Positions 18,025-27,595 of a stretch of 43,465 bases of DNA are shown piece after piece. This DNA is from Nitrospinaceae bacterium (GTDB taxonomy: Bacteria > Nitrospinota > Nitrospinia > Nitrospinales > VA-1), in contig CP070799.1 in NCBI GenBank assembly GCA_020343535.1, forward strand, positions 1,824,209-1,867,673, written 5' to 3'. Each line of letters starts with the position of its first letter. The stretch's first letter is position 1. A model generated the notes under the pieces. That model saw only the letters and a list, made by a program, of their open reading frames with translations. It was not told the DNA's origin and did not search any database. Position numbers and translations under genes: made by a program.

Positions 18025-18057
18025 TAACAAACCACAAAGACGCCCAAGGAGGAGAAG

Positions 18058-18585
18058 ATGAACCATTCCATCCAGAAGTGGTCCTATGGCTTAATGATCC
18101 TGCTGTTCGCATGTCTCGCTGTGGCCGGTTGCGCGGGCAAGGAGGGAAATTCAACAATGGCCGCCATGGAGCAGCCGATGGAACAAGAGGCGGTGGCCAT
18201 GAAAACCATCGACCCGCCTGGGCATTGCCCGCAAACCCGCGGCACCGTACCGGCGCCGGAACCCTTTGCCAGCATGATGAACCCGCTGCCCGCGAGCAAT
18301 GAAAATATTTCCGGAGGCAAACTGCTGTTTCATGAAGATGCGCGGCCCATGCCCTGCGAAACCTGCCATGGGTTCAAGGGCAATGGTTTCGGAGTCATTT
18401 TCCAGCAGATGAAACCCTATCCCCGCGATTTTACTTGCTACCAGGTGATGAGCGATCTCTCGGACGGGCAGTTGTTCTGGATCATCCGCAACGGGTCTCA
18501 TGGAACCCGCATGAAGGGTTTCGCGAAGCTCACCGAGGATCAGGCCTGGCAGCTGGTGCACTATATCCGGAGCTTGTCGAAGTGA
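18058..18585 (+). CDS. Monoheme c-type cytochrome lipoprotein with C-P-Q-x-R / F-T-C module
   Basis: 175 residues with strong AAGGAGGAG ribosome site. The signal ends in a lipobox V-A-G-C25, so the cytochrome is membrane-anchored by lipid. One heme site C100-E-T-C-H104 is present, with G-T-R-M as likely axial methionine. Two more cysteines, C57 in C-P-Q-T-R and C127 in F-T-C, recur in three other cytochrome domains of this cluster. The C-terminal wording D-G-Q-L-F-W-I-I-R-N-G-S ... Q-L-V-H-Y-I-R-S-L is likewise shared. It likely passes electrons in the periplasm; partner unknown. Confidence 0.88.
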   Translation: MNHSIQKWSYGLMILLFACLAVAGCAGKEGNSTMAAMEQPMEQEAVAMKTIDPPGHCPQTRGTVPAPEPFASMMNPLPASNENISGGKLLFHEDARPMPCETCHGFKGNGFGVIFQQMKPYPRDFTCYQVMSDLSDGQLFWIIRNGSHGTRMKGFAKLTEDQAWQLVHYIRSLSK

Positions 18586-20003: not shown

Positions 20004-20399
20004 ATGCCTAAGGGAAAAATCATGATCGTGGATGATGAAAAAGAAGTACGGGAAGTGATTCGGATTCACCTGGATGTCAACGGCTATAACCTCCTGGAAG
20101 CGGAGAATGGCGAGGAGGCGATTAAAATCCTGCGCAGTGAGGACAACATGGTCAACGTCGGCCTCATTTTGTGCGACATTCGCATGCCCAAGGTCAATGG
20201 CATTGAGTGCATCGATTTCCTGCGCCAGGAAGCCCCTGGAATTCCCGTGGTGGTGGTCACCGGATATCCGGATACCGAAATGGCGACCAATTTGATGAAA
20301 AAAGGCATCAAGGATTATCTGGTCAAGCCAGTGGAAAAGAAAAAGCTCCTGGATACCGTGGAGAAACTCATCGCTGCCGGTAAGGATATCAGTCTGTAA
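20004..20399 (+). CDS. Stand-alone response-regulator receiver (CheY-like)
   Basis: 131 residues, one receiver domain only. The acidic pocket is D-D-E near the N-terminus, the phospho-acceptor is D58 in C-D-I-R-M-P, and the conserved threonine (V-V-T-G) and lysine (V-K-P-V) follow. There is no output domain, so it must act by binding a partner or in a phosphorelay. The ribosome site GAAGGGAG is strong. The gene is followed at 126 bases by a histidine kinase, its likely partner. Confidence 0.92.
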   Translation: MPKGKIMIVDDEKEVREVIRIHLDVNGYNLLEAENGEEAIKILRSEDNMVNVGLILCDIRMPKVNGIECIDFLRQEAPGIPVVVVTGYPDTEMATNLMKKGIKDYLVKPVEKKKLLDTVEKLIAAGKDISL

Positions 20400-20525
20400 T
20401 AATTGGCATCGATTGGCCTGGGCGGGCCTGGCAAGAGGCCGCTAGGCCCAGGCGCCGGAAGGGCATTGCCAGCGAATGAAGAACGGGCCGGCCGCGGGCA
20501 TCCCGGGGTCAGGCGGGGGAACGGT

Positions 20526-21792
20526 ATGGATCAGGGGTCAGGGGTTGACCACGAAAAAGAAATTCGCCAGCGCACCGAGGAATACCGGGTCCTTCATGAA
20601 GTGGCCAAGGTGATCAACTCCGGGGATGGCCTCGACGCAATGCTCCAGAAGGCCTTGAAGGTCATCGTCGGGTTTGGCGAACTCAAGGTCGAGTACAAGG
20701 CGGGGATCTTTCTGGCGGATGTGGAAAATCGCGAACTCAACCTGTTTTCCTGGATCGGCGAATTTTCCGGGGAGTTCCTGGAAAAGGAGAAAACCATTCC
20801 TTACGGCAACTGCCTCTGCGGCCGTGTGGCGGAATCTGGGGAGATGATCATCAGCGAAAGCTGCTTCACGGATTCACGGCATGAAAACACCTTCAAGGAC
20901 ATGACCGCCCATGGGCATTACATCGTCCCGCTTAAAAGCGGAAATGCCTTGATCGGGGTCTTGTTTCTTTATACCGACGAGAACCCTCCCTGGTACAGCC
21001 GCAGCCAGGACATCCTGCTTTCGATCGGCGGGCTGCTCGCGGGGGCCATCGTCGAAAAAAAGAGAGAGGAGGAAATTCGAAGGTCCAACCAGGAACTCAA
21101 GGAACTTAACGAGCTCAAGAACAAGTTCCTCGGCATCGCCTCGCATGACCTGAGAAACCCGCTGTATCTCATCCTTTCGTACAGCGAGATTTTGAAGGAG
21201 GGATCCGTTGGGCCGGTGAACGAAAAGCAGGCCGGGCTGCTGGAGAAAATTCACAACTCCAGCAAATATATGGAGGCGCTGCTGGAAAACCTGCTCGATA
21301 TCTCCAAGATCGAAAGTGGAAAGATCGAGCTGGATAAGAAAGTTCAGGATTTCAATGCGGTCGCCGGGACACAGGTGGATCTGAACCAGCTTCTGGCGGA
21401 AAAGAAAAATATCCATATCGAGTTCAAGGCGGGAAAGATTCCCCCTGTTTCTTTTGATGGCAATTCAATCATCCAGGTGATCGGAAATTTTTTGGGGAAC
21501 GCCATCAAATTCTCTCCCGCGAACACGACGGTCCGGATATCCACTGGCCTCGATGGCGGCAATATCAGGTTTTCCGTCCAGGACGAAGGGCCGGGCATTC
21601 CTGAAAAGGAGCAGAAATTATTGTTTGAGGAATTTCAGACGTTGAGCGCTAAACCCACCGGGGGGGGAAAAATCCACCGGCCTGGGATTGGCCATCGCAA
21701 AGAAAATTATTCACCTGCATGGAGGGAAGGTGGGAGTGGAGAGCAAGCCCGGACAGGGCTCGACGTTCTATTTCCTGCTGCCTGTGCAATAA
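20526..21792 (+). CDS. GAF-domain histidine kinase, frameshifted at a G8 run
   Basis: Soluble kinase with a GAF domain (about residues 20-175, with [12 protein letters not shown]), HisKA with H207 in SHDLRNP, and HATPase_c. ATG 20526 follows a GGGGGA ribosome site; a TTG at 20403 in the same frame is less likely. At 21660-21667 a run of 8 G shifts the frame; 7 G would give [12 protein letters not shown], the G2 box, and end at 21792 with 421 residues. As read, the frame goes on to 21803 with an unrelated tail and no G2 box. The core is a paralogue of the PAS kinase at 948-2065. It probably senses a small ligand or redox state through GAF and signals to the upstream receiver. Confidence 0.88.
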
Positions 21793-21819
21793 CCCAACCC
21801 TAAATCCGGGAGGTGCGTC

Positions 21820-22233: not shown

Positions 22234-22377
22234 GCGTTTGTTGAACATTTCATTTTAGGCGGCCGGTGAACGACCGCCTGCGTATTTCCTTCTGTGATTC
22301 ACGAGTGCTTCATTACGACGGCCCCGTCGAATTTACAGAATTGGGACCTCATCGATATCTATTCAAGGTGCCTTGCG

Positions 22378-23058
22378 ATGAAAGTTTTTCAGAAAAATAA
22401 CCGAAAGCGATACAGCTGGCGAGTGCCCGCCCTGGCGTTACTTGTTTTTGCGCTAGGGCCTGGGGGAGATGCCCTGGCGGAAGAGCCGGGTTATGGCATA
22501 AGGGAAACAGAAGTCATATCCGGAAGCGGTTTGACGCCGGTTCAGCATCGAGGCCCTCCCGAAGGCCGAGGCCCAAGGCATGGCCGGGGCGGTGGGCATT
22601 GCCCGGAAATGGATAAACGTGGGGGCTGCCGGGGCGGCATGGGGCACCAGGGTGGCATGGGGATGCATCATGGTGGCGGCCAGGCCGGATCGGCCCTATG
22701 CCCGCAGCCCAGGCAAACGGTGCAGGCGCCGGATGAATTTTATAATCTCGTTAACCCGCTGGGAAATACCGCCGACAATATAGAAAAGGGCCGGCTGCTG
22801 TTCTCGCTGGACGTGCAACCCACTTGCGTGATGTGCCACGGTGCTCAGGGAGACGGAACGGGCGGGTTCGGCGCCGATATGAGCCCGAAGCCCAGGAATT
22901 TCACTTGCGCCGAAACCATGAGTCCCATTCCGGACGGGCAGCTTTTCTGGGTCATTCGGAATGGTTCTCCAGACACTGGCATGCCGCCGTTTCAGGATTT
23001 GAGGGACGAGCAGATCTGGCAATTGATTCTCTACATTCGCAGCCTCGGCGGCCAGTGA
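22378..23058 (+). CDS. Monoheme c-type cytochrome with His/Gly/Met-rich linker
   Basis: 226 residues from ATG 22378, the first start placing a signal peptide (about residues 10-33) at the terminus; it is preceded by AAGGTG. A low-complexity linker (about 58-103) rich in G, H, M, R with two C-containing spots could bind metal. Then comes the shared module: C108-P-Q-P-R, heme site C150-V-M-C-H154, C177 in N-F-T-C, and D-G-Q-L-F-W-V-I-R-N-G-S ... M-P-P-F with axial Met. Periplasmic electron carrier; partner unknown. Confidence 0.88.
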   Translation: MKVFQKNNRKRYSWRVPALALLVFALGPGGDALAEEPGYGIRETEVISGSGLTPVQHRGPPEGRGPRHGRGGGHCPEMDKRGGCRGGMGHQGGMGMHHGGGQAGSALCPQPRQTVQAPDEFYNLVNPLGNTADNIEKGRLLFSLDVQPTCVMCHGAQGDGTGGFGADMSPKPRNFTCAETMSPIPDGQLFWVIRNGSPDTGMPPFQDLRDEQIWQLILYIRSLGGQ

Positions 23059-23110: not shown

Positions 23111-24526
23111 ATGGATTTTACGATGGACCGACCGCATCGCCTGCTCGCGTCGCTGTTGCTAGGCATTTTCCTGTTGCCCGCGCCGCTGTTTGCCGCCGAG
23201 GCGGGCCTTGGCGAACGCCTGGTCAAGGAACAATGCGTGACCTGCCATAAATTCGAAGGCGAGCCGGAGTCCAAATTCAACCTGAAGGGTCCCGACCTCA
23301 TGTGGGGCGGAAATAAATACCAGCGGCCCTGGTTGATTCGCTGGCTCACGGGAAAGGAAGAAAACCTCTATCCCAACGGTTACCGCTGGGACAAGGGCAC
23401 GGGCCCCCAACCGCACGTGGTGTTGTCACAAGAAGGCGCCGAGTCGGTGGCGGACTACTTTGAAAAAAACCTTCTCGATCCCCGGATCAAAAAGAGCTTC
23501 GTCGATCTGTCCACCTTGACCGAGATGGAGGCCGCCTTCGGCGCCGAGATTTACAAAAAGTTTTCCTGCCTGGGATGTCATCAGATCAAGGAAGACGGTC
23601 AAAAAATCGGCGGCCCCATCAGCGTCACCCTTTATGACGCGGGAAATCGTTACAACCTGGACTGGTGGTCGCGGTTCGCTGAAAACCCGCAGGATTTCAC
23701 CCCGCACAGCGGCGAATACCTGGCCGACCTCAGCATGCTGGGGGCCCGCTACATCATTGGCTACCTGATGATCCTGGGCGTCGAGGACTTCAAGTATTTT
23801 GAACCCTGGAAAACAGATCACTTCAAAAAGGCCGACTCTAAACGAGGCGCCACCGTTTACAAGGAATACTGCACGCAGTGCCACGGCGCGAAGGGGGAAG
23901 GTGACGGGCCCGGCGCGGCGGGGCTTGAGCCGAAACCCGCGGTGCACGCCAAGATGGCGCTCAGCCAATTTCCCGAGGACTATCTTTACAACGTCATTTA
24001 CTACGGCGGAAAAAGCGTCGGCAAGTCGCCCAACATGCCCGACTGGGGCCTGACCATTCCGCCTCAGGGCATCGCGGACCTGATCGCTTATTTAAGGGAA
24101 ACCTTCAAGGGGGACGCGGGGGCCGAAGCGGCTCCAACAGCCACCGCCAAAGCGCAAACCGGGGATTGCCCGCAACCGAGGAAAACCAAAAAGGTTTCTT
24201 CGATCCTGTTCAACAAAAAGAATCCACTGAAGCCCACGCCCCCGAATCTGGAAGCGGGCAAGAAGCTGTTCCATAAAACAGCGAAACCCATGGCTTGTGA
24301 ATTGTGCCACGGTAAAAAGGGCGATGGCCGTGGGCCGGGCGGTGCCGGAGTGACCCCCAAGCCGAGAAACTTTACCTGCCAGGAAACCATGAATGGTGTT
24401 CCGGATGGGCAACTGTACGGCATCATCAAAAAGGGTTCTCCGGGCACGGCGATGCCGGCGTTCATGAATCTCAAGGATAAAGAGATCTGGCAGCTGGTTC
24501 TTTACCTTCGCGAGTTTGCCAAATAA
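23111..24526 (+). CDS. Tetraheme c-type cytochrome, C-terminal domain of the local family
   Basis: 471 residues with signal peptide (1-29). Four heme sites: C42-V-T-C-H, C153-L-G-C-H, C254-T-Q-C-H and C396-E-L-C-H. Domains 1-3 are class I-like, with domain 3 having the G-D-G-P-G-A-A-G-L-E-P-K-P wording of common periplasmic cytochromes. After a linker (about 335-350) the last domain is the local module with C353-P-Q-P-R and C423 in N-F-T-C, fused to the others. ATG 23111 follows AAGGAGGGGACGAG. Four hemes in one chain suggest a wire between an unknown donor and acceptor. Confidence 0.9.
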   Translation: MDFTMDRPHRLLASLLLGIFLLPAPLFAAEAGLGERLVKEQCVTCHKFEGEPESKFNLKGPDLMWGGNKYQRPWLIRWLTGKEENLYPNGYRWDKGTGPQPHVVLSQEGAESVADYFEKNLLDPRIKKSFVDLSTLTEMEAAFGAEIYKKFSCLGCHQIKEDGQKIGGPISVTLYDAGNRYNLDWWSRFAENPQDFTPHSGEYLADLSMLGARYIIGYLMILGVEDFKYFEPWKTDHFKKADSKRGATVYKEYCTQCHGAKGEGDGPGAAGLEPKPAVHAKMALSQFPEDYLYNVIYYGGKSVGKSPNMPDWGLTIPPQGIADLIAYLRETFKGDAGAEAAPTATAKAQTGDCPQPRKTKKVSSILFNKKNPLKPTPPNLEAGKKLFHKTAKPMACELCHGKKGDGRGPGGAGVTPKPRNFTCQETMNGVPDGQLYGIIKKGSPGTAMPAFMNLKDKEIWQLVLYLREFAK

Positions 24527-24591: not shown

Positions 24592-25051
24592 ATGAGACTG
24601 AAGACGTTTGGTAAAGGCTTTGGGATTGCGGCCATCGCGGTTTTAATATGTTGTGGCGGGGGAACTCTCACGGCTGCGGCCTCGAAGCAGTGTCCGCAGC
24701 CTCGGTTCACCGAAAAAGCGCCGGATGATATCTACAATGTGCAAAAATCCCTTAGAAGCGACTGAAGAGAACCTCAAAAAGGGCAAGATGCTGTATCTGG
24801 TCAAGGCGAAGCCCCTGCCTTGCAAGCATTGCCATGGCCTTAGCGGCGACGGTATGGGACCCATGGCCCGGGGGTTCGACCCGCCTCCCAGGGACTTCAC
24901 CTGCGCAAAAACTATCAAGGGAGTTCCCGATGGGCAGTTATTTTGGATTATCCAGAACGGTTCTCCTGGAACGGGCATGCTGGCCTTTAACGGCCTGAAC
25001 GACGAGCAAATCTGGCAGGTGATACTCTACATTCGGCAACTGGCGAAGTGA
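24592..25051 (+). CDS. Monoheme c-type cytochrome of the local family, frameshifted
   Basis: ATG 24592 follows CGGAGG and opens a signal peptide (about residues 5-29) and C34-P-Q-P-R. At about 24739-24743 a run of 5 A shifts the frame and leads to a stop within ten codons. Four A would continue as N-P-L-E-A-T-E-E-N, the wording of its paralogues, and give 152 residues. The rest has the heme site C-K-H-C-H (tgc at 24821), F-T-C (corrected C104) and D-G-Q-L-F-W-I-I-Q-N-G-S-P-G-T-G-M. The next gene starts 14 bases after the stop. Confidence 0.86.
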
Positions 25052-25065
25052 CGAGGCGAGAGCAC

Positions 25066-26472
25066 ATGACAGGAAAAAAGATCGTGATCGTGGGTGGGGT
25101 CGCAGGTGGGGCAATCGCCGCGGCCTGCGCGCGCCGGCTGTCTGAGGATGCAGAGATCATCATTCTCGAACGGGGTGCTTTTGTCTCGTTTGCCAGCTGC
25201 GGTCTCCCCTACAGTCTCGGCGGTGAGGTCGAAAATCAGGACGACCTGCGGGTGCAAACTCCCGCGAGCCTTCGCGAGCGCTACAACCTCGAAGTGGCGG
25301 AGCAACTCCATCATCGCGGGCTGAAGGTCGTGCTGGTCGAGGCCGCGAGGCAGGTGATGACCTCCTTCGATCCGGAGATGGCCGTCTGGCTTGAGCGGGA
25401 AATGAAGGCCAAGGGCCTCGGCCTGCACCTGGGCGAGCCCGTCGTCGGTTTCGAAACGCCGCAAAGGGGCGAAGACGCCCTGGCGTCTACGGTGGTGCTC
25501 CAGTCTGGCGCCCGCCTTCCGGCGGATCTCGTTATCCTCGGGCTAGGTGTGCGCCCGGAAACCGGACTGGCCCGAGCCGCCGGCTTGAAGATCGGCGACT
25601 TGGGCGGCATCCGGGTCGATGACGAACTCAGGACCAGCGATATCCATATTTGGGCGATTGGCGATTGCATCGAAGTGACCGACGCGGTGACGGGCGATCC
25701 CGCCCTTCTCCCCCTCGCCGGGCTCGCCAACCGGCAGGGCAGAATCGCAGCGTACAATATTTTTGGTGCGGGCAAAAAATGCCCCGGCTCCCTGGGAACG
25801 GCCATCGTGCGCATGTTCGAGCTGACCGCCGCCCGCACCGGCGCGAGCGAAAAAACGCTTCGCCAGGCGGGCCGGCCCTGCGAGGCCGTCCATCTGCATC
25901 CTTTCTCTCACGCGGATTACTACCCCGGAGCGGAGCGGCTGGCGCTCAAAGTGATCTTTGACCCGGGGACCGGCAGGCTTTTAGGGGCTCAGGCAGTGGG
26001 CAAAAAGGGGGTGGACAAACGCATCGACATTCTGGCCACGGCGCTTAAAGCGGGCATGACGGTTTCCGACCTGGTGAACCTGGAACTGGCCTACGCGCCG
26101 CCGTTTAGCTCCGCCAAGGACCCGGTGAACCTTGCGGGCATGGTGGCCGAGCACGTTTTGAGCGGGGAGATCGCCCAGGCCCATTGGCACCACATCGCCG
26201 ACCTGGATGATCAAAAAACGGTTCTTCTCGACGTCAGAAGCCTGAAGGAGCGTGAAAGAGGATTCATCCCGGGTTCGATTCATATTCCGCTAGGCGAGCT
26301 TCGCCAGCGGGAGGGCGAACTCTCGAAGGATCGGGAAATCATTTGTCATTGCCAGACCGGACAACGCTCCTATATGGCGTGCCGGTCCCTCAGCCACCTG
26401 GGTTTTCGGGTCAGAAACCTCATGGGTTCTTATCGAACCTGGCAAGTGGTCAAGGAGAATGTCGTGAAATAA
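25066..26472 (+). CDS. CoA-disulfide/polysulfide reductase with rhodanese domain, internal deletion
   Basis: 468 residues from ATG 25066 (GAGGCGAG site). Flavoprotein disulfide reductase of the CoADR/Npsr type, which reduces CoA-disulfide, persulfide or polysulfide with NAD(P)H, fused to a rhodanese domain. The FAD site G-G-V-A-G-G, catalytic C45 in S-F-A-S-C-G-L-P-Y, A-I-G-D-C for FAD, and the dimer domain with Y-Y-P-G-A are present. The C-terminal rhodanese has C429 in C-H-C-Q-T-G-Q-R-S. At residues 77/78 (about 25294), where Y-N-L-E-V meets A-E-Q-L-H-H-R-G, about 90 residues of the family are missing in frame, including the NAD(P)H G-x-G-x-x-G. The flavoenzyme is probably unable to use NAD(P)H; rhodanese activity may remain. 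Confidence 0.87.
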   Translation: MTGKKIVIVGGVAGGAIAAACARRLSEDAEIIILERGAFVSFASCGLPYSLGGEVENQDDLRVQTPASLRERYNLEVAEQLHHRGLKVVLVEAARQVMTSFDPEMAVWLEREMKAKGLGLHLGEPVVGFETPQRGEDALASTVVLQSGARLPADLVILGLGVRPETGLARAAGLKIGDLGGIRVDDELRTSDIHIWAIGDCIEVTDAVTGDPALLPLAGLANRQGRIAAYNIFGAGKKCPGSLGTAIVRMFELTAARTGASEKTLRQAGRPCEAVHLHPFSHADYYPGAERLALKVIFDPGTGRLLGAQAVGKKGVDKRIDILATALKAGMTVSDLVNLELAYAPPFSSAKDPVNLAGMVAEHVLSGEIAQAHWHHIADLDDQKTVLLDVRSLKERERGFIPGSIHIPLGELRQREGELSKDREIICHCQTGQRSYMACRSLSHLGFRVRNLMGSYRTWQVVKENVVK

Positions 26473-26556: not shown

Positions 26557-26581
26557 GCCACTCATGATAAGGGAGGTAGTT

Positions 26582-27097
26582 ATGAAATTTTCAATCAAGT
26601 CTGCTCTTATTACAAGCGCGGGCGCCCTGCTCGCATTCTCGCTGGCGGCGGCTCCGGCTCTCGCCGCCGGCCCGGCGGGCGGTTACGACATCCACGTGCA
26701 GGCGCCGCACATGATGCACGATGGAACGGTGGGCGGACCGTTTCATCATTATTGCAAGGGCATCAACGACCAGATTCTGCAATGCCTGTTGTTCGAATCC
26801 ACCGACCCGAAAGCGCCCTTGGTAGCCATCGAATATTTCGTGTCGAAGGATCTATCGCGCAAGCTGCCGCGAATCCAGTGGCACCGGTTTTTCCACGATC
26901 ATAAAATAGAGATCGCCACCGGCCGCGTGCAGGTGCTCGACGTGCCCGCCGATCAGGCCAAAGCAATCGCCGATGCGGCGGCCAAGACCGACGGCGTGAT
27001 CTATCATCTCTGGCAGGAGGGCCAGGAATTCCCCGACGGAACCGTGACGTTCCCGCAGTCTCTGGGCCATTCCTTCCCGCAGCACAATGGTGAATAA
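26582..27097 (+). CDS. Exported DUF1264 (OBAP-like) protein
   Basis: 171 residues from ATG 26582 after GGGAGG. The signal peptide ends A-L-A-A (about 28). The body has the DUF1264 wording: H-H-Y-C-K-G-I-N-D-Q-I-L-Q-C-L-L-F-E-S, then V-A-I-E-Y-F-V-S, then H-R-F-F-H-D-H-K. The family has no known activity; plant members (OBAP1) are oil-body associated. His and two Cys in the first motif may bind metal. It has its own promoter and a terminator, so it is probably monocistronic within the cytochrome cluster. Confidence 0.83.
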   Translation: MKFSIKSALITSAGALLAFSLAAAPALAAGPAGGYDIHVQAPHMMHDGTVGGPFHHYCKGINDQILQCLLFESTDPKAPLVAIEYFVSKDLSRKLPRIQWHRFFHDHKIEIATGRVQVLDVPADQAKAIADAAAKTDGVIYHLWQEGQEFPDGTVTFPQSLGHSFPQHNGE

Positions 27098-27102
27098 TCC
27101 TG

Positions 27103-27131
27103 AAGGAGGGCCTTCCAAGGCCCTCCTTTTT
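27103..27131 (+). terminator. Intrinsic terminator of the DUF1264 gene
   Basis: A 12-bp stem AAGGAGGGCCTT / AAGGCCCTCCTT with a 2-base apex (in practice a TTCCAA loop on a 10-bp stem) is followed by TTTCC. It begins 5 bases after the stop codon. Confidence 0.85.
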
Positions 27132-27148
27132 CCTTCACGAGGGAGACC

Positions 27149-27595
27149 ATGCGAAACGTCTTAAAAGCGGGATGCCTGTTCGGGCTTTCGGCCTTCCTGT
27201 GGCTGAACCCGGCGGCGATCGAGGCGGTGGACCCGGAAGTGCTGATTCCCCGCGTGCCCGAAGATCAGATGGCGGAAGCCAGAAGCTGGAAGAACCCGTA
27301 TCCCGCGACGCCGGAAAATATTGAAAAGGGCGAAGCCATTTTTTTCGGCAAGGGGTTTTGCGTCACCTGCCACGGCAAGGACGGCAAGGGGCTTAACATC
27401 GAAGGCCTGCGTGGCAAGCTGCCGAGAAATTTCACCGATGGCGAGTGGCAGGCGGCGCGCGCTGACGGCGAGCTTCTGTGGATTCTGAAAAACGGTTCCA
27501 AGGGCACCGCCATGGCGCCGTTCATCCCTCTCGTCCTGACCGAAGACGAAGCCTGGCACGTGCTGCTCTACGTGCGCTCGCTGGGGAAAAAATAA
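27149..27595 (+). CDS. Monoheme c-type cytochrome, divergent member
   Basis: 148 residues with signal peptide (about residues 1-26) and a GAGGGAG site. The heme site is C71-V-T-C-H75. The C-terminal half (D-G-E-L-L-W-I-L-K-N-G-S-K-G-T-A-M ... V-L-L-Y-V-R-S-L) aligns with the other cytochromes of the cluster. It lacks both extra cysteines: no C-P-Q-x-R, and N-F-T-D replaces N-F-T-C. Its joint loss of the two suggests that they work together in the others. Soluble periplasmic electron carrier. Confidence 0.87.
   Translation: MRNVLKAGCLFGLSAFLWLNPAAIEAVDPEVLIPRVPEDQMAEARSWKNPYPATPENIEKGEAIFFGKGFCVTCHGKDGKGLNIEGLRGKLPRNFTDGEWQAARADGELLWILKNGSKGTAMAPFIPLVLTEDEAWHVLLYVRSLGKK

Follow-up and report, generated by a model that had tools for sequence, protein, structure and literature searches.

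How a heme domain that also occurs as a free protein came to be joined to a multiheme cytochrome, and what it contributes there, is the question raised by a gene at positions 23111..24526 (+ strand) of the window, the 43,465-nucleotide stretch of a Nitrospinaceae bacterium genome analysed here (contig CP070799.1; assembly of 2.53 Mb in one contig, 86% complete). The gene starts with ATG at 23111, with GGAGG just before it, and encodes a fused tetraheme c-type cytochrome of 471 residues with four CXXCH motifs, at residues 42, 153, 254 and 396. As judged by eye from the translation, it begins with a hydrophobic stretch that is likely a Sec signal peptide (23111..23194), and the protein is predicted to be exported to the periplasm. 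Three heme domains with approximate edges follow, domain 1 at 23195..23515 (CVTCH at 23234-23248), domain 2 at 23516..23800 (CLGCH at 23567-23581) and domain 3, itself module-like, at 23801..24118 (CTQCH at 23870-23884), and then a linker (24119..24163) and a C-terminal mono-heme module (24158..24523, CELCH at 24296-24310). The four motifs and scores well above the Pfam cut-offs for Cytochrome_CBB3 (PF13442; 109.2 bits, cut-off 27) and Cytochrom_C (PF00034; 107.7 bits, cut-off 21.3) identify the protein as a class I-type c cytochrome. Its triheme part occurs in a single copy in the genome.

An AlphaFold2 model built with 46 fused rows reached a pLDDT of 86 and a pTM of 0.82, and in the linker (model residues 309-323) pLDDT fell below 50. 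The mono-heme module forms the fourth domain and is tethered by this flexible linker, at which the reading frame of unfused relatives also stops. A sequence-only reading had equated the last ~120 residues with the module that neighbouring genes encode as free proteins, and this homology is real: the last 122 residues (350-471) match the module HMM with 176 bits, and the same HMM finds four free copies in the window. Two cysteines of the module, one N-terminal and one in an NFTC motif, possibly form a disulfide; among 116 modules both are present in 70, neither in 25 and one alone in 21.

The four free copies, all on the + strand and all likewise above both Pfam cut-offs, were located at 18058..18585 (175 aa; module HMM match 18028-18582), 22378..23058 (226 aa; match 22270-23055), 24592..25051 (match 24647-25048) and 27149..27595 (148 aa, a divergent member of a cyt579-like group; match 27104-27592). 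Free modules close to the fusion, as the sequence-only reading had described, are thus present, but the downstream one is not intact as sequenced: a one-base frameshift lies near a run of five A at about 24740, reflecting either a sequencing error or a young pseudogene, and an intact orthologue exists in the sister genome G001. A search of the genome itself returned 19 matches (E 4.7e-83 to 5.7e-5), including domain 3 of the fused protein and multi-heme proteins, and the fused module was 36-58% identical to ten free copies of its own genome.

The side-by-side arrangement had been read as the outcome of gene duplication followed by fusion. The phylogeny of the module with the free copies contradicts this for the window lineage. 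In a tree of 116 rows (20 fused, 2 broken-fused and 94 free modules; ~120 alignment columns), the 22 fused or broken-fused modules fell into two clades of 17 rows (support 98/92) and 5 rows (100/94), neither of which holds any of the 94 free modules; a single clade of all 22 was not rejected (AU p=0.354). The nearest kin of the window's fused module are fused modules of other genomes. Grouping it with both neighbours was rejected (AU p=8e-5), as was grouping it with the downstream neighbour (p=6.7e-6), and forcing it beside the window neighbours costs 188 log-likelihood units. Each neighbour belongs to a separate orthologous group: the upstream one clusters with the upstream copies of G026, G018 and G048, and the downstream one with copies from G001, G048 and G026. 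A free module that begins at the stop codon of the triheme gene in G031 does illustrate a possible route to fusion, and fused and free forms do lie together in the window; nevertheless, with both tree tests against it and the fused form spanning three phyla, duplication of a local free copy and its fusion to the triheme gene in this lineage is highly improbable and was dropped. For the original fusion, which is far older, such a form is quite conceivable. A larger module tree of 223 rows (107 added; 60 fused, 161 free, 2 split), quick and poorly resolved, required 7 changes between fused and free labels against a mean of 55 for shuffled labels; in this same poorly resolved tree the smallest clade with all fused modules encloses 42 free rows, first among them L157, for which no intact triheme frame was recovered, and a long-branched row of G044.

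The fused form turned out to be widespread among the relatives. A search of 60 related genomes gave some match in 59, and from 36 matched genomes and the window 42 triheme genes were gathered, 20 of them fused. Two broken fusions are counted among the 22 unfused genes: G026, with a single in-frame TAG in the linker, and G001, a decayed fusion with several linker stops and a deletion. Most unfused proteins stop at one constant position, directly after a TFKG-like motif. Linker-broken fusions were located at L100 7683-9236 (stops and deletion) and L060 10552-11997 (single TAG). A scan of named genomes, restricted to the best 80 of 276 loci, recovered Nitrospinota, Nitrospirota, Ca. Nitrotoga and one contig labelled Emcibacteraceae; among the 82 genes scored in these loci, 31 of Nitrospirota, 3 of Nitrotoga and 17 of Nitrospinota were fused, the last against 25 unfused. 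The remaining Nitrospirota rows comprised three cut by contig ends and two counted as unfused, one frameshifted and one from SZUA-350, a 'Nitrospirae' lineage that the available part of one report assigns to the class Nitrospinia (PMC10839748). The Emcibacteraceae contig (L131, 6 kb) carries an unfused triheme gene nested among Nitrospina genes and is probably misbinned.

From these loci it had appeared that all Nitrospirota genes are fused, which proved wrong in a broader sample: of 198 Nitrospirota genomes, 44 had the gene, and among the 47 genes listed 40 were matched through the module and seven were not. All seven are unfused and, together with one row cut by a contig end, form one nested clade (98/92). 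The gene was also present in 14 of 100 Gallionellaceae genomes (15 genes); every frame has at least 474 residues, and the module was matched in one piece in eight genes and in a second piece in two more. The genes of Nitrotoga BS and M5 fall within a clade of Nitrospinota (100/98), that of N. fabula within one of Nitrospira (100/97), indicating two separate transfers. The three loci concerned are L135, L152 and L177, and the donors were Nitrospinota-like and Nitrospira-like.

Genomes with an unfused triheme gene, which the sequence-only reading had suggested looking for, therefore exist; as precursors of the fusion, however, they do not fit. The midpoint-root state of a 102-row tree was reconstructed as fused, which speaks against an unfused ancestor, and the separate triheme form appears derived. 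The tree required six changes without broken and cut rows, and eight with the broken ones counted as unfused. Most simply, the approximately six changes would be mostly losses, with regains possible. These data show that the fusion is old and common to Nitrospinota, Nitrospirota and Ca. Nitrotoga, and that the tail was lost repeatedly. No pattern of a nearby free copy making up for tail loss was seen by eye in the module HMM table. The window's own genome also has, at 1486 kb (L097 6592-7892), a diheme gene similar to heme domains 1-2 and a separate mono-heme gene similar to domain 3, a possible split relative of the triheme core.

Besides being lost, the tail has moved between paralogues. Two fused paralogues on separate contigs of G018 are 56.5% identical in the triheme part vs 87.3% in the module (59.8% and 87.1% at the DNA level), with identity climbing around the linker. 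The reverse was observed for the second G018 paralogue and G013, which share 85.4% of the triheme part and 55.6% of the module. The groups used in the following exchange tests were picked after viewing the trees, and the p values serve as guides: a clade of six clade-2 paralogues was recovered with the triheme data (100/100) and rejected by the module data (p=2.7e-5), a clade of the owners of the window-type module was rejected by the triheme data (p=1.9e-45), and the pairing of G038a and G016a, the modules of which are 74.4% identical, was rejected by the triheme data as well (p=1.5e-54). Both parts compared, the alignments and trees show that the tail has been exchanged between fused paralogues, presumably by gene conversion or recombination.

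Losses and exchanges might mostly be errors of metagenome assemblies, and some of the breaks have this look: those of G026 and G001 are plain, locus L179 appears frameshifted, and a frameshift and a deletion occur in the window itself close to the cytochrome gene. Yet in many genomes the unfused proteins have a clean end at a shared position, and one group of them is recovered as a supported clade. The exchanged tails, found on different contigs, show 87% identity and not 100%. The same tail type also accompanies a clade-2 triheme part in the single-contig genome G037. Assembly error as the general explanation is hence improbable. Under the reading of genuine loss and exchange, the C-terminal heme module could represent an evolutionary cartridge, in which nitrite oxidizers re-target a conserved triheme core by losing the tail or having it overwritten by that of a paralogue, so that respiratory wiring would evolve by exchange of docking heme domains; we offer this as a tentative idea that may well prove wrong.

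The best NCBIfam match was cytochrome 579 (NF033864, of Leptospirillum), with 69.6 bits for the fused protein and 56-91 bits for the four window copies. Cytochrome 579 is a single-heme, unfused protein, however, and 69.6 bits is far from the curated equivalog cut-off of 280 bits, placing the fused protein outside this family. SorB/SorU share the class-I cytochrome fold (4pwa, Z 10.0) but have one heme, SorA here has its own small cytochrome adjoining, and for NCBIfam SorU the upstream free copy scored 17.9 bits against 100. The closest structural counterpart was chain B of PDB 6h5l, which we tentatively take to be Kustc0458, the diheme of the anammox HAO-like complex Kustc0457/Kustc0458. Domain 3 and the module together matched it with a profile E of 2.4e-19 (1.4e-15 with the module alone), a Foldseek E of 3.5e-10 and a Z of 13.7 over 192 residues, in structure-search rows that cover mainly model residues 335-443 and barely probe the fold of the N-terminal two-heme half. 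A tandem of two class-I-type heme domains homologous to those of chain B is thus seen for domain 3 plus module only. Kustc0458 differs in having two hemes vs four and in its octaheme reductase partner, which was not seen here; in addition, superposition of the two domains gave an rmsd of 12 A, so that the domain arrangement is not common to the model and Kustc0458. The available text of one paper has the two-protein complex extend the route of electrons through the HAO-like octaheme, starting at heme 1 of that protein, and gives the name Kustc0458 to the HAO-like protein (PMC8388095). The flexible linker, the known structure of a homologue within a docked diheme, and the exchange of tails together make it plausible that the module docks on or feeds the triheme wire, as the sequence-only reading had proposed.

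Among relatives, a SorA-type sulfite dehydrogenase was found in 17 loci (two confirmed by Pfam), in all 17 on the strand of the cytochrome, within 700 nt of its frame in 10, within 2,800 nt in 3 more and at 4,100-4,950 nt in 4. Further neighbours were always on the same strand: pyridine nucleotide-disulphide oxidoreductase (PNDR) plus rhodanese (12/12), YeeE-type sulfur transporters (8/8), TauE (8/8) and DsrE (5/5), with representatives confirmed by Pfam. SorA occurred in 15 of 35 fetched Nitrospirota loci, 2 of 40 of Nitrospinota and none of four of Pseudomonadota, and at least one sulfur-type neighbour in 28/35, 11/40 and 0/4 loci, respectively, counts taken over loci of differing length and without a random-locus control. 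In the window SorA is absent beside the tetraheme gene, the genome's own SorA and small cytochrome lying at 983-985 kb, and the conserved PNDR-rhodanese neighbour is present (25066..26472, +). This latter gene lacks ~95 internal residues found in G001, including the nucleotide-binding GxGxxG stretch, and its product is probably non-functional as sequenced. Earlier work had proposed sulfite:cytochrome c oxidoreductases in Nitrospina gracilis and Nitrotoga fabula, with no link to this cytochrome in the available parts of these papers (PMC3578206, PMC6050957), and another paper states, in its available part, that physiological evidence for sulfite oxidation by nitrite-oxidizing Nitrospinia is lacking (PMC10839748).

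Taken together, we lean slightly towards a four-heme electron relay in the periplasm of nitrite oxidizers, an old shared fusion with the tail as exchangeable contact domain and a SorA-type enzyme as the favoured donor. Electrons would enter the row of four heme domains from a periplasmic dehydrogenase, likeliest a sulfite dehydrogenase of the SorA type together with its small cytochrome, and would travel along the hemes to a terminal oxidase or to soluble cytochromes. Which partner is reached would depend on the tail, whose loss or exchange would rewire the relay while leaving the three-heme core untouched. Both the relay role and the sulfite donor are inferences.

The distribution of the gene fits a role linked to nitrite oxidoreductase (NXR) as well. 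Across the 198 Nitrospirota genomes, 37 had gene and NXR, 7 the gene only, 7 NXR only and 147 neither (Fisher p=5.7e-26), where NXR type means a match of Nitrospira score, classes were sorted by hand among the matches listed and relatedness is uncorrected; when 11 further NXR-like genomes with higher scores were included, the gene was lacking from 18 NXR-like genomes (p=1.3e-19). The tetraheme protein may accordingly serve nitrite oxidation, carrying electrons from a periplasmic NXR to the terminal oxidase, with the sulfur-gene neighbours incidental. The NXR-type match in 37 of 44 Nitrospirota carriers, the two separate transfers into Ca. Nitrotoga and NxrA-like frames of ~1160 aa in many relatives of the order argue for this role. 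However, no NXR gene stands out among the neighbour families, which were partly domain-searched, and NxrA-like matches do not exceed 35 bits in the window's own assembly or 59 bits in the carrier G063. We regard the NXR role as rather unlikely and the relay with a SorA-type donor as the preferred reading. A 1226-aa frame upstream of the gene in Nitrotoga fabula, a candidate NxrA, was dropped on reading its sequence. The window host belongs to a nitrite-oxidizing order, yet it shows no NxrA-like match beyond 35 bits, which reflects either a gap in the assembly or a true lack in the host.

The wider question addressed by the four-heme relay is how electrons are routed through the many small c-type cytochromes of nitrite oxidizers. 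In their available portions, nitrite-oxidizer papers place electron transfer 'via cytochrome c' or c-type cytochromes, leaving this protein unnamed (PMC3578206, PMC10839748, PMC8026999), and no description of the fused tetraheme family was found in what was available of the open-licence PMC literature on nitrite-oxidizer cytochromes, sulfite dehydrogenase and domain swapping. A triheme cytochrome is described, in the part available, within a conserved bd-like oxidase/alternative NxrC cluster of nitrite oxidizers (PMC8026999); it is likewise a triheme c-type protein, but, compared by description only, its gene setting differs, and neither bd-like oxidase nor alternative NxrC was recognised among the recurring neighbour families here. 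Shared by three nitrite-oxidizing groups, gained twice by Ca. Nitrotoga and often near SorA, the tetraheme protein is a candidate for an alternative-donor route, and natural pairs differing mainly in the tail allow the role of the tail to be tested directly. Further gene types recur around the cytochrome. At 20004..21803 (+) the window has genes whose translations, read by eye, look like a response regulator and a histidine kinase; genes of both kinds, likewise assigned by eye, are also found near the tetraheme gene in relatives. A DUF1264 gene adjoins the cyt579-like free module (26576-27595), and DUF1264 genes occur near the cytochrome, on the same strand, in 18 loci.
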